Below are positions 11,395 to 23,881 of a DNA stretch of 64,000 bases, in pieces. A program made the translations under genes and the position numbers. The notes beneath the pieces were generated by a model. That model made no database searches, was not told the origin of the DNA, and saw only the letters and a program-made list of their open reading frames with translations. Position 1 is the first letter of the stretch, and each line of letters starts with the position of its first letter. The DNA is taken from the NCBI GenBank assembly GCA_009773455.1, contig WSXU01000029.1:21848-85847 (forward strand), in the 5' to 3' direction. The DNA comes from Bacteroidota bacterium (GTDB lineage: Bacteria; Bacteroidota; Bacteroidia; Bacteroidales; Lentimicrobiaceae).

Positions 11395-11623
11395 AGGGGG
11401 AGGATAAGTATAAAGTTAAAAGTTAAAAGTAAAAAGTTAAAAGCTAAAAGTAAAAAGCCTGCCTGCCGCAGGTAGGTAAAAAGTAAAAGCCTGTTTGCGG
11501 TTTACCAGCCGCAGGGGAGCAGTTTGGTCCGCAATCATAATGCCTTTGGCAACTTGCCCCGCTTTTTCAGCGGGGGGCCAAGCACAATCCGAAATCCAAA
11601 TTCCGCAATCCGCAATCCACAAT
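11395..11623. repeat. composite intergenic repeat block between fahA and hpd
   Basis: No gene. It contains a degenerate AAAAGTTAAAAGT tract (11409-11457), a palindrome CCTGCCTGCCGCAGGTAGG (11458-11476), a nested GC-rich hairpin in which TTGGC/GCCAA encloses CCCCGC/GCGGGG (11546-11581), and a run of degenerate words such as CAATCCGAAATCC and CGCAATCC (11586-11632, touching the hpd end). The same word types recur before acr3. Confidence 0.6.
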
Positions 11624-21497: not shown

Positions 21498-21557
21498 ACA
21501 GAAACATTAATCCACATACAGAACGAACTGAATTTCACCATCTAAAGTCTGATTACT

Positions 21558-21794
21558 ATGGAAATCAAAATTCTCGGAACAGGTTGCGCCAACTGCAAAA
21601 ACCTCGAAAAAGCGACCCGCGAAGCGGTTGCTGAACTTAAACTGGATGCTTCAGTCGTTAAGGAAGAAGACATCGTTAAAATTATGGGCTATGGCATCAT
21701 GCGCACACCCGCGCTGGTTGTAGATGAAAAAGTATTGTTTTACGGAAGGATTCCGTCTGTTGCTGAGCTCAAGGAAATGTTAAGTAAAAAATAA
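21558..21794 (+). CDS. arsE: small thioredoxin-fold redox protein, ArsE-like
   Basis: 78 residues with a glutaredoxin/thioredoxin fold of the small redox-active disulfide type: IKILGTGCANCKNLE gives a CxxC at C10 and C13, and the family cis-proline shows in MRTPALVVDEKVLFYGRIPS. In the described arsEFG systems a protein of this kind, with ArsF, is implicated in reducing nitroaromatic or pentavalent aromatic arsenicals before export by ArsG. It lies 18 nt before arsF. There is no signal peptide, so it is cytoplasmic. Function is inferred from family and order. Confidence 0.82.
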   Translation: MEIKILGTGCANCKNLEKATREAVAELKLDASVVKEEDIVKIMGYGIMRTPALVVDEKVLFYGRIPSVAELKEMLSKK

Positions 21795-21812
21795 CCCTCA
21801 AATATTTAAAAC

Positions 21813-22211
21813 ATGAAAAAGATCGTATTTATCGGAATCTTTGTGATGATGGCTACCCTCGTTTTTGGTCAGAAAGCCACCAGGTTGAGCATTGTATATT
21901 TCCATGCTGAACACCGTTGTCCAACCTGTATCTCGATTGAAGAAAATACAAAAAAGACGCTGGATACCTATTTTGCGGCACAATTGAAGGATGGAACCAT
22001 TAAACTCCAGGTTCTGGATGTTTCTGACGACAAAAATATTAAGCTGGTTGAAAAATACCAGGCCGACGGTTCAGGTCTTTTCCTTACCCGTTTGGATGGC
22101 AAAAAAGAAAAAACCACCGATTTTACCAATTTTGCCTTCAGCTATTCAAGAAACCAGGCCGATAAATTTATTTCGGGCCTGAAAGCTGAGATCGAAAAGA
22201 ATTTGAAATAA
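21813..22211 (+). CDS. arsF: ArsF-family nitroreductase-subunit-like thioredoxin protein
   Basis: 132 residues. A signal peptide (1-20, ending VFGQ) precedes a thioredoxin-like domain with HRCPTCISIEE, giving a CxxC at C36 and C39. It matches the ArsF family known from the arsEFG operons. The signal peptide predicts a periplasmic or membrane-tethered protein, in contrast to the cytoplasmic ArsE. The stop codon runs directly into an 8-nt repeat tract. The next gene is a four-helix-bundle protein rather than arsG, an insertion between the expected partners. Confidence 0.82.
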   Translation: MKKIVFIGIFVMMATLVFGQKATRLSIVYFHAEHRCPTCISIEENTKKTLDTYFAAQLKDGTIKLQVLDVSDDKNIKLVEKYQADGSGLFLTRLDGKKEKTTDFTNFAFSYSRNQADKFISGLKAEIEKNLK

Positions 22212-22242
22212 TTTGAGGATTTGAAGATTTGAAGATTTGAGG
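22211..22242 (+). repeat. four 8-nt tandem repeats ATTTGARG
   Basis: ATTTGAGG, ATTTGAAG, ATTTGAAG, ATTTGAGG occur in succession right after arsF. The reverse-complement version (TCTCAAAT) lies on the other side of the next gene at 22671-22694. Confidence 0.85.
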
Positions 22243-22299
22243 ATGTTATAACATGGGAAATTTGGGATCTTAAATCATTAAAGGTGAAAGGATGTTTAA

Positions 22300-22650
22300 A
22301 TGAAAAAAGATAATGAAAATCTGATTGTTAAGCTATCACTTGAATTTGCGATTGATATTATACAGTATGCTGAGAAATTGGAAAGTCTGAAAAAATATAT
22401 CATTGCAAAACAGATTTTAAAATCAGGGACTTCAATTGGAGCCAATGTCAGGGAAGCCCAAAACGCTGAGAGTAAGGCTGATTTTATTCACAAAATGAAA
22501 ATAGCAGCCAAAGAAGCCGATGAAACTGATTACTGGCTTATCTTATGCAAACTATCACCTATGTATCCTGATCCTGAAGATCTTGCCGAAAAACTGAATT
22601 CTATAATAAATGTCCTGTCAAAAATAATAATAACATCAAAATCTTCCTGA
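22300..22650 (+). CDS. four-helix-bundle protein of the 23S rRNA intervening-sequence (IVP) family
   Basis: 116 residues, all helical, with the family pattern GTSIGANVREAQNAESKADFIHKMKIAAKEADETDYWL. Members were first seen inside 23S rRNA intervening sequences and also occur alone in Bacteroidota; they form pentameric bundles and some are accessory proteins of retroelements. The molecular role is unknown. The gene is flanked by inverted 8-nt repeat tracts (22211-22242 and 22671-22694) and splits the otherwise contiguous arsEF and arsG. It therefore looks like a small cassette rather than an arsenic gene. Confidence 0.85.
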   Translation: MKKDNENLIVKLSLEFAIDIIQYAEKLESLKKYIIAKQILKSGTSIGANVREAQNAESKADFIHKMKIAAKEADETDYWLILCKLSPMYPDPEDLAEKLNSIINVLSKIIITSKSS

Positions 22651-22661
22651 TCAAAGAGTAA

Positions 22662-22694
22662 TTTTCAAATTCTCAAATTCTCAAATTCTCAAAT
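22662..22694 (-). repeat. 8-nt tandem repeats TCTCAAAT (inverted relative to 22211-22242)
   Basis: Three TCTCAAAT units (22671-22694) are preceded by TTTTCAAAT. Read on the minus strand they are ATTTGAGA, close to the ATTTGARG units on the other side of the four-helix-bundle gene. Confidence 0.85.
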
Positions 22695-22702
22695 CAAGGA
22701 AA

Positions 22703-23401
22703 ATGGAATTCATACAGAACCTTATCGACCAAAGCACATTCCCGCTGCTGACAGCCTTCCTGCTCGGATTAATGACGGCCATCAGTCCCTGCCCGCTGGC
22801 TACCAATATAACTGCATTGGCCTATATCAGCAAGGATGTTGAAAGTAAGCGGACTGTTTTTCTGAATGGACTTTATTATACCCTTGGCCGGACGCTCACC
22901 TATACCATACTTGGTGCGATCATCTTTTTTGGTGCCAGCAAATTTCAGGTCAGCCGGGCTGTTCAGGCCAACGGTGAGAAATGGATCGGGCCACTGCTGA
23001 TCATCATCGGTATTTTTATGCTGGGGATGATTAAACTACCGGGTTCATCCGGTACCTTGATGCAGCGGTTTGCCGATAAAGTAAAAGTTGGCAGCAGTTG
23101 GGGAGCGCTTCTCCTTGGGGTGATCTTCGCACTGGCCTTTTGTCCGTACAGCGGGGTTCTTTATTTTGGAATGCTGATGCCCATGGTCCTTTCTCAGCCA
23201 TCAGGATTGCTTCTTCTGCCTGATTTTGCCATCGCTACCGGCCTGCCTGTAATATTGCTGGCCTACCTGCTGGCATTCAGTATAGGTGGGGTCGCCAGGT
23301 TTTATAACAAGGTTAAAATTTTTGAAGTCTGGTTCAGGAGGGTAGTAGCGGTTTTGTTTATCCTGACCGGGTTGTATTTCGTCTGGATTTATTTTTCCTG
23401 A
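22703..23401 (+). CDS. arsG: ArsG-family aromatic arsenical efflux permease
   Basis: 232 residues with about six membrane helices, of the DsbD/TauE-like LysE superfamily. Characteristic cysteines sit at C30 (ISPCPLATN) and C147 (AFCPYSGVL), each next to a proline, as in the thiol-relay DsbD/CcdA fold. The ArsG family exports aromatic aminoarsenicals formed by ArsEF. Order and size match the known arsEFG operon apart from the inserted four-helix-bundle gene. It ends 6 nt before the convergent PNPOx gene, with no terminator seen between. Confidence 0.84.
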   Translation: MEFIQNLIDQSTFPLLTAFLLGLMTAISPCPLATNITALAYISKDVESKRTVFLNGLYYTLGRTLTYTILGAIIFFGASKFQVSRAVQANGEKWIGPLLIIIGIFMLGMIKLPGSSGTLMQRFADKVKVGSSWGALLLGVIFALAFCPYSGVLYFGMLMPMVLSQPSGLLLLPDFAIATGLPVILLAYLLAFSIGGVARFYNKVKIFEVWFRRVVAVLFILTGLYFVWIYFS

Positions 23402-23407
23402 GCATAT

Positions 23408-23881
23408 TCAGACAGAATCCATTGCCTCAAGATCTGCTATTGTCCACCATTCCACATCATCAATACCACGAACAACCTGATAGGTGTTGACCTTAATCCG
23501 CACAAGAATGCAATCTTCTGCCTGCATAAATGACAATAGGTCAGGATGCCACGCCAGATGTGCATTGAAAACCGCTTCATGATCTTCTATCCTGATTTCT
23601 TCCGTATGTCCAAATGCTGTAAGCACAAAACTATCCCTTTGTTCGTTGTTGTCGTAACTCCCACTTTCAATGAGCAGGGCTGCATTACCATTTCGCGTTA
23701 AATTCCTGTATTTCTGTGTATTGCGATAAGTTGCGAAGACCAATACCCGGTAGCTCTCCATCGGAGTAATCGCAATAAAGCTGGCATGCGGCCGGCCATC
23801 GCCTTCTGTTGCCAATACAGCAAAACGATTGCGCTTAAGGACATTCTCAATATATGCTTTGGTTTCTGACAATCTATCCAT
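23408..23881 (-). CDS. pyridoxamine 5'-phosphate oxidase-like FMN-binding protein
   Basis: 157 residues of the split-barrel PNPOx-like fold: FAVLATEGDGRPHASFIAITPM at the N-terminus is the usual flavin-binding strand pair, followed by TRNGNAALLIESG. This group includes general flavin or F420-dependent reductases and haem-utilisation-like proteins; it is not a true PdxH. The gene stands alone and converges on arsG. Substrate unknown. Confidence 0.8.
   Translation of the reverse strand: MDRLSETKAYIENVLKRNRFAVLATEGDGRPHASFIAITPMESYRVLVFATYRNTQKYRNLTRNGNAALLIESGSYDNNEQRDSFVLTAFGHTEEIRIEDHEAVFNAHLAWHPDLLSFMQAEDCILVRIKVNTYQVVRGIDDVEWWTIADLEAMDSV

Follow-up and report, generated by a model that had tools for sequence, protein, structure and literature searches.

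The DNA analysed here is a 64,000-nucleotide stretch (the window) of contig WSXU01000029.1 from a bacterium of the Lentimicrobiaceae (Bacteroidota), in which a small gene of the IVP family, bracketed by mirrored tandem octamers, lies between the ars operon genes arsF and arsG. Cassettes of this build, an IVP gene with its own inverted tracts, are widespread in Bacteroidota, tiny, transposase-free and apparently mobile. We lean towards viewing them as a family of mobile hairpins without a transposase of their own, which would resemble the RAYT/REPIN systems in the way they work and the intervening sequences (IVS) of rRNA genes in the way they are built. How the S23p/IVP family functions and how rRNA IVS spread are both unsolved problems, and cassettes situated between protein genes, with matched ends, unoccupied sites and IVP-less relatives, would provide a testable system for each of them; they also offer an origin for intergenic repeats of seven or eight nucleotides that lack a known spreading mechanism.

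The gene between arsF and arsG is a member of the IVP/S23p/four-helix-bundle family. Its product scores above the curated cut-offs of PF05635 (E 2.7e-22; 79.4 bits, cut-off 33.8) and TIGR02436 (E 2e-26; 92.3 bits, cut-off 24), and its sole match in the PDB up to E 0.01 is the five-chain entry 2RLD (E 4e-23). An earlier note, written from the letters of the window alone, had described this gene as bracketed by mirrored 8-nt tandem tracts, and this proved correct: the double unit ATTTGARRATTTGARR matches the window six times, always within the left and right tracts, against 0.01 matches expected from dinucleotide shuffles, and 0 of 100 shuffles reached six. Across the whole 4.81-Mb genome it has 18 matches, grouped into seven clusters of which the arsF|arsG tracts make up two; a reversed control pattern yields 0 matches. 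The left tract does consist of four octamers of the ATTTGARG type, more exactly ATTTGARR; the right tract is built of inverted octamers as had been noted, with four units in place of the three counted there (Table 1).

Table 1. Features at the arsF|arsG insertion, in window positions
Feature	Position	Strand	Description
Left terminal tract	22211..22242	+	Four tandem ATTTGARR octamers: ATTTGAGG ATTTGAAG ATTTGAAG ATTTGAGG
IVP / four-helix-bundle gene, 116 aa	22300..22650	+	PF05635, TIGR02436; nearest solved structure 2RLD
Right terminal tract	22663..22694	-	Four inverted tandem octamers: ATTTGAGA x3 plus ATTTGAAA
arsE-family thioredoxin-like gene, same gene run as arsF/arsG	21558..21794	+	TIGR00412 (NCBIfam)
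arsF, host gene upstream of the cassette	21813..22211	+	ArsF NF040494 (NCBIfam)
arsG, host gene downstream of the cassette	22703..23401	+	ArsG NF040495 (NCBIfam)

The left tract starts within the arsF stop codon (TAATTTGAGG), at its final base; 8 nt separate the end of the right tract from the ATG of arsG. The C-terminus of ArsF (EIEKNLK) agrees with that of its relatives, and arsF has therefore not been truncated by the insertion. When positions 22195-22705 are folded as RNA, both tracts close a common stem (z score -3.83), and the complementary ends are able to enclose the IVP open reading frame (ORF) in a stem-loop of the kind known from rRNA IVS. Between the tracts Pfam recognises no gene other than that of the IVP, and no transposase was present among the seven genes scanned around the insertion. 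Rfam gave zero matches up to E 1 across positions 21500-23500, and a PADLOC scan contributed nothing.

The empty site of this insertion can be seen in related ars operons. ArsG was detected in 27 of 41 genomes, at 29 loci including that of the window, and tblastn with the IVP of the window found no IVP at any of the 28 other loci, so that no related operon carries the gene without its repeats. ArsF lies upstream of ArsG at 24 of these 28 loci (tblastn), and 22 of the 24 gaps measure only 5-91 nt with the stop and start codons included, which bears out the view that the cassette splits two normally adjacent genes. The two remaining gaps, of 305 and 181 nt (loci L144 and L153), contain other repeats and no IVP. 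In the two closest relatives, whose ArsG is 81% identical, 91 nt separate arsF and arsG and the octamers are absent. The intergenic part of the junctions without insert is too diverged to define a target-site duplication. The comparison as a whole shows that the arsF|arsG cassette is an insertion.

Two further junctions, whose gene names were assigned by reading, were followed across relatives. The thiL|uvrC junction holds another cassette of the genome studied here; of the 17 loci read, three contain an IVP, at 12 the gap measures 10-78 nt and has no 7/8-mer tract discernible by eye (two of them show a doubled 9-mer), and two are unreadable (no upstream gene detected; in one, G004, a contig break lies inside a tract). 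The junction between the genes for an acyl-CoA dehydrogenase and HMG-CoA lyase carries an IVP at 13 of 18 loci. Five of these are of a 127-aa type with GACAAGG-like tracts, seven of a 121-aa type with GGGACGA-like tracts and one is of another kind; four loci are IVP-less with gaps of 51-264 nt, and the remaining locus lacks an IVP as well as a detected upstream gene. The unoccupied sites at arsF|arsG and thiL|uvrC lend good support to the small mobile cassette proposed by the earlier note, as do three findings set out below: matched inverted tracts with differing units recur at most IVP genes, the similarity of the units climbs with IVP identity between sites, and hairpins are swapped among species at a fixed junction.

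The genome from which the window is derived contains ten PF05635 loci. Nine of them have mirrored tandem 7- or 8-mers on both sides, each locus with a unit of its own (among them GGAGTAA, GACAAGGA, GTTACAGA, AAGCTCA and TTAGAAA), and an arm score of 13 is attained at all nine. The tenth is a member of a lineage represented by about one copy in each genome of the genus. Other copies of the cassette thus exist in number, as the earlier note had surmised, although they do not carry one and the same unit. For a broader survey we assembled a subset of PF05635 matches, 114 IVP ORFs from 27 genomes of the genus and order searched, three of which have none, and used the 103 ORFs with enough flanking DNA and a good profile score; the cut at an arm score of 13 was set after the null distribution had been seen. 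At least 13 is reached by 73 of 90 tract-type loci, against 0 of 13 loci of the once-per-genome lineage, and direct repeats, taken as a control, reach it at 11 of the 90. In an earlier set of 76 loci, the corresponding rates were 5% for mispaired flanks and 8% for direct repeats. Similar proportions were obtained in a wide set picked by a motif of the window's subfamily, the best 80 of 578 loci on named contigs, nearly all labelled Bacteroidota (64 of 81 IVPs; direct repeats 14 of 81), and in two genomes of Chryseobacterium (16 of 21 IVPs). Mispaired flanks reach 13 in 22% of cases in the wide set, a higher rate attributable to the RATKTGNN-like octamers that this subfamily has in common. The counts are not independent, many copies being shared by descent among related species; with this proviso, matched inverted tracts are the rule for tract-type IVP genes.

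The once-per-genome lineage (L043 1771-2181, at G000:C12:258k, and its orthologues) encodes acidic proteins of about 136 aa and may possibly have been domesticated. Its median isoelectric point (pI) is 5.3, versus 8.6 for the IVPs outside it, and the latter value fits a predicted binding of nucleic acids.

Which unit a cassette carries is related to its IVP. Among 142 cassettes, in pairs whose neighbouring genes are not homologous, unit similarity rises with IVP identity (Spearman 0.43), its median being 0.19 below 35% identity, 0.38 at 55-65%, 0.50 at 65-80% and 0.72 above 80% (6 pairs); when the same cassettes were compared in opposite orientation as a control, no such rise occurred. A unit fixed by the site was rejected as an explanation: in 298 pairs with homologous neighbours and IVPs less than 45% identical, unit similarity stays at background. 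The unit families include an TTAGAAGT type in C. endalhagicum and an ATTTGAA type. At the carA|carB junction of this genus, where 30 of 39 matching loci were read and 14 hold an IVP or a fragment of one, one IVP type is found with AAGAACC-like tracts in four loci (L361, L363, L367, L383) and with CAGATATTAG-like tracts in three others (L371, L374, L378), and a second, unrelated type (22-29% identical to the first) has AATGTAACA tracts in five. The tract unit follows the IVP subfamily more than the site, though turnover is possible.

At one junction the occupant itself differs among related species. In 40 Chryseobacterium genomes we searched for the gene of 3-hydroxyacyl-CoA dehydrogenase (paaH), which neighbours an enoyl-CoA hydratase gene (ech; both names assigned by reading), and read the 30 loci that matched best. 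The ech|paaH junction is occupied in all 30, by IVP cassettes in eight and by IVP-less hairpins in 22. The 22 IVP-less gaps, of 79-130 nt, contain hairpins of inverted 7-8-mers that belong to several unit families (fold z -2.8 to -5.6) and are of the same build as the cassettes. When the occupant is mapped on a tree of the two flanking genes, 16 changes are needed, versus a mean of 15.5 for shuffled labels (30 loci; a single label covers both the TGTACAATG and the ATTAATGTA hairpin families), which indicates that the occupant changes between species irrespective of the species tree. Conservation beyond that of both flanking genes was seen in 6 of 6 species pairs for the ATTAATGTA hairpin, 17 of 28 for the IVP cassette, 8 of 55 for AATGTAACA, 4 of 10 for TGTACAATG and 0 of 1 for TTAGAAG; in Mantel tests, the divergence of the TGTACAATG and ATTAATGTA hairpins did not track that of the flanks. 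Together these data support an exchange of hairpins between species at ech|paaH, alongside some vertical descent. The exchanged hairpins did not leave mosaic flanking DNA, the nearest 60 nt being similar for pairs of the same and of different families. Covariation within hairpin families is weak (for AATGTAACA, two pairs with changes on both sides, no better than 2 of 6 slid controls) because the sequences within a family are nearly identical. The eight IVP genes at this junction have a median omega of 0.069 (28 pairs, with dS near saturation), a value indicative of purifying selection.

Arrays and hairpins without an IVP gene are also found elsewhere in these genomes. Repeats without the gene, which the earlier note counted against a cassette, are common as unpaired arrays, with 33 intergenic 6-10-mer arrays in about 385 kb of the genome studied, most of them away from an IVP; the only gene in this DNA that is flanked by two arrays whose units match in inverted orientation is an IVP gene. 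Two hairpin scans of the same 385 kb found periodic inverted arms at both IVP genes there, and each also gave two IVP-less hairpins, one common to both. The arsF|arsG tract pair itself is missed by a stricter hairpin scan and recovered by a laxer one. In two stretches of this genome, of 386 kb and 64 kb, there are 19 and 4 intergenic 7/8-mer arrays with at least three copies of the unit (two of the four being the arsF|arsG tracts), and a 400-kb stretch of a Chryseobacterium has 35. Two genomes of the same order that lack PF05635 gave 1 such array (369 kb) and 0 (400 kb); the comparison comprises just these two IVP-less genomes, a third having been pattern-searched only. Periodic hairpins number 4, 2 and 5 in three IVP-rich stretches versus 0 and 1 in the IVP-less genomes. 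Three RATKTGNN units in a row, counted with the cassettes' own tracts, have at least four matches in 8 of 8 genomes whose IVP reaches 45% identity to that of the window and in 3 of 19 others (Fisher p 7e-5), the 45% cut having been chosen after the data were seen; two genomes just below it (G011, G016) lack the octamers. The number of such triple units correlates with the identity of the closest IVP (Spearman 0.51, p 0.006). Inverted extragenic hairpins, with and without the IVP gene, are hence dispersed as is typical of RAYT/REPIN systems.

The two systems that come closest resemble the cassette in different respects. The rRNA IVS of Coxiella and Leptospira are insertions in transcribed DNA, with complementary ends that form a stem and an S23p/IVP ORF in its loop, sporadic in distribution and suspected of horizontal transfer (PMC4990558); with its IVP ORF within a stem-loop this is the closest anatomical analogue. 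Unlike the cassette between the protein genes arsF and arsG, rRNA IVS lie in a helix of 16S or 23S rRNA, and they differ from the cassettes in that the latter have arms of tandem 7-8-mers and IVP-less hairpins of the same build. RAYT/REPIN, as portrayed in PMC3116915, ties one protein family to dispersed extragenic hairpins that stand alone or beside the gene in matching flavours, and this association of gene and hairpin makes it the closest working analogue; however, it has a Y1 tyrosine transposase within or next to the element, where the cassette has a four-helix-bundle protein and no Y1 transposase among the genes scanned nearby, and its arms are one REP palindrome and not tandem repeats. 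A terminal-inverted-repeat DNA transposon needs a transposase gene, and there is none in the cassette or among the seven genes scanned. Long inverted ends of short tandem repeats are a feature of Foldback-type transposons, which are eukaryotic and much larger. The link between IVP genes and bracketing tandem tracts was not found in open-licence papers of PubMed Central, a corpus without preprints and subscription journals. MacGregor (2015; PMC4679880) reports 7-nt intergenic tandem arrays such as TAACTGA, some of them in Bacteroidetes, and finds no evident mechanism for how they spread; its main text does not contain the words "S23", "intervening" or "four helix". The consulted portion of PMC5524665 places the gene of a four helix bundle protein beside the guanylate kinase gene of F. 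columnare and mentions no repeats.

On the reading that we favour, the feature at arsF|arsG would be one copy of a compact mobile cassette consisting of an IVP gene and its own terminal inverted tandem tracts, which together could form a long stem that encloses the gene in its loop. The IVP might recognise the hairpin or the repeat units belonging to its own family, in the form of RNA or single-stranded DNA, and thereby help that family to spread, while IVP-less hairpins and loose arrays would be non-autonomous or decayed copies, related to the cassettes as REPINs are to RAYTs. Cutting and joining would come from the host or from another element recruited by the IVP, since no catalytic enzyme can be recognised in the cassette itself. 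With its stem base adjoining stop and start codons, the hairpin would hold both host genes near each other in the transcript and so render the insertion tolerable. Going further, each IVP subfamily may recognise, copy and spread its own tandem-repeat hairpin among transcribed junctions, by way of RNA or single-stranded DNA and with enzymes borrowed from the host, and so give rise to the intergenic 7-8-mer repeats of Bacteroidota, the classical 23S rRNA IVS being members that landed in rRNA; this we put forward as a tentative extension only.

Several observations weigh against a self-spreading cassette. It contains neither a transposase nor any recognisable enzyme that cuts or joins DNA or RNA, no target-site duplication was defined, and no excised or newly inserted copy was observed. 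The IVP of the window has a pI of 6.6 and is not basic. Seventeen of the 90 tract-type loci remain below an arm score of 13; several of these show tracts by eye and are nevertheless counted as low. The two IVP genes in the 400 kb of Chryseobacterium are both without any of the five hairpins detected there, and the genomes G006, G007 and G010 contain many window-type octamers and no close IVP. Between the two carA|carB groups with AAGAACC-like and CAGATATTAG-like tracts, the IVPs are 69-74% identical and unit similarity is just 0.19-0.48, and the unit must therefore be replaceable within one IVP lineage. At ech|paaH, divergence tracks the flanks within the AATGTAACA hairpins (Mantel p 0.0005) and the IVP cassettes (p 0.004), so that part of their history is vertical.

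Among the alternatives, an unlikely one is that the hairpins are host elements for regulation or RNA processing at operon junctions, selected for their structure, in whose loop the IVP gene is an occasional passenger. The presence of an inverted-tract element at every ech|paaH locus read would suit such a role, as would the position near stop and start codons. Yet arsF|arsG and thiL|uvrC are usually unoccupied, the hairpin family is independent of the species tree, and unit similarity tracks IVP identity over unrelated sites; nor is there a bias towards pairing in the sense strand.

The orientation of the cassettes bears on a second alternative. From 126 cassettes considered, 6 of which lay too close to an edge, both neighbours are co-directional with the IVP in 109 of 120 (57 of 62 plus 52 of 58), whereas about 0.35-0.38 would be expected under random orientation from the adjacent gene pairs with the same direction (281 of 366 and 180 of 258), a comparison that is rough since some insertions were inherited jointly by descent. 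In several operon-like gene pairs of Flavobacteriia the entire cassette sits tightly from stop to start. Cassettes thus lie between co-directional genes, often from the upstream stop codon to just before the next start, and this near-exclusive placement is what an RNA-linked element would show. RNase III might free the stem-loop from the operon transcript and a reverse transcriptase acting in trans copy it into new transcribed junctions, with the IVP as an Avd-like chaperone. The anatomy matches the Coxiella IVS, for which PMC4990558 describes an S23p ORF in a stem-loop and excision by RNase III, and PF05635 is said in PMC10053308 to resemble, in sequence and structure, Avd of diversity-generating retroelements, which have a reverse transcriptase with template and variable repeats nearby; no reverse transcriptase occurs among the seven genes around the window copy, a genome-wide search not having been made. 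Mismatches in the arms, however, show no excess of G-U wobble pairs in the sense RNA over the antisense RNA (70 vs 107 in the genus set, p 0.007, which leans the opposite way; 96 vs 100 in the wide set), and the duplex energies of the two strands are indistinguishable. Selection on sense-RNA pairing is not supported by these counts, and we regard mobility at the RNA level as rather improbable. The suggestion of the earlier note that the cassette perhaps spreads at the RNA level, as its two tracts could pair, is left without support, so that its interpretation is supported for the mobile cassette and not for the RNA-level mechanism.

We hold it just as improbable that an unrelated enzyme in trans, such as a Y1 transposase of the IS200-like/RAYT kind acting on single-stranded hairpins, moves the cassettes with the IVP as cargo. 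At three of the 30 carA|carB loci (L364, L365, L381) an IS200-like/RAYT-family gene with REP-like hairpins beside it stands in place of the IVP cassette, the one member scanned (L364) matching Y1_Tnp (PF01797, E 1.7e-28); against mere cargo speaks that unit similarity tracks the IVP. Ordinary slippage microsatellites that bracket IVP genes by coincidence, for which the 33 mostly IVP-less arrays might be adduced, are rejected as a sole explanation and very improbable, given that matched inverted pairs at IVPs far exceed mispaired flanks and direct repeats, that related IVPs at different sites have units in common, and that the two IVP-less genomes are nearly free of arrays (1 in 769 kb).

Some further arrays and hairpins of this genome may be recorded here. 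A cluster of heptamer arrays surrounds an IVP at L036 (G000:C122:21000-27500), with TAACTGA-like units among them that adjoin the IVP at C122:25477; two ATTTGAGA octamer arrays there share one orientation and are separated by about 0.67 kb, in which no IVP was found. Within the window, heptamer arrays of AAAGTTA (11412-11457) and CAATCCG (11585-11623) are separated by about 130 bases, and an IVP-less inverted hairpin with periodic arms (TCACGCAAGGACGCAATGACGCAA) extends from 33562 to about 33760, just upstream of an ORF that by eye resembles an arsenate reductase/low-molecular-weight phosphatase.
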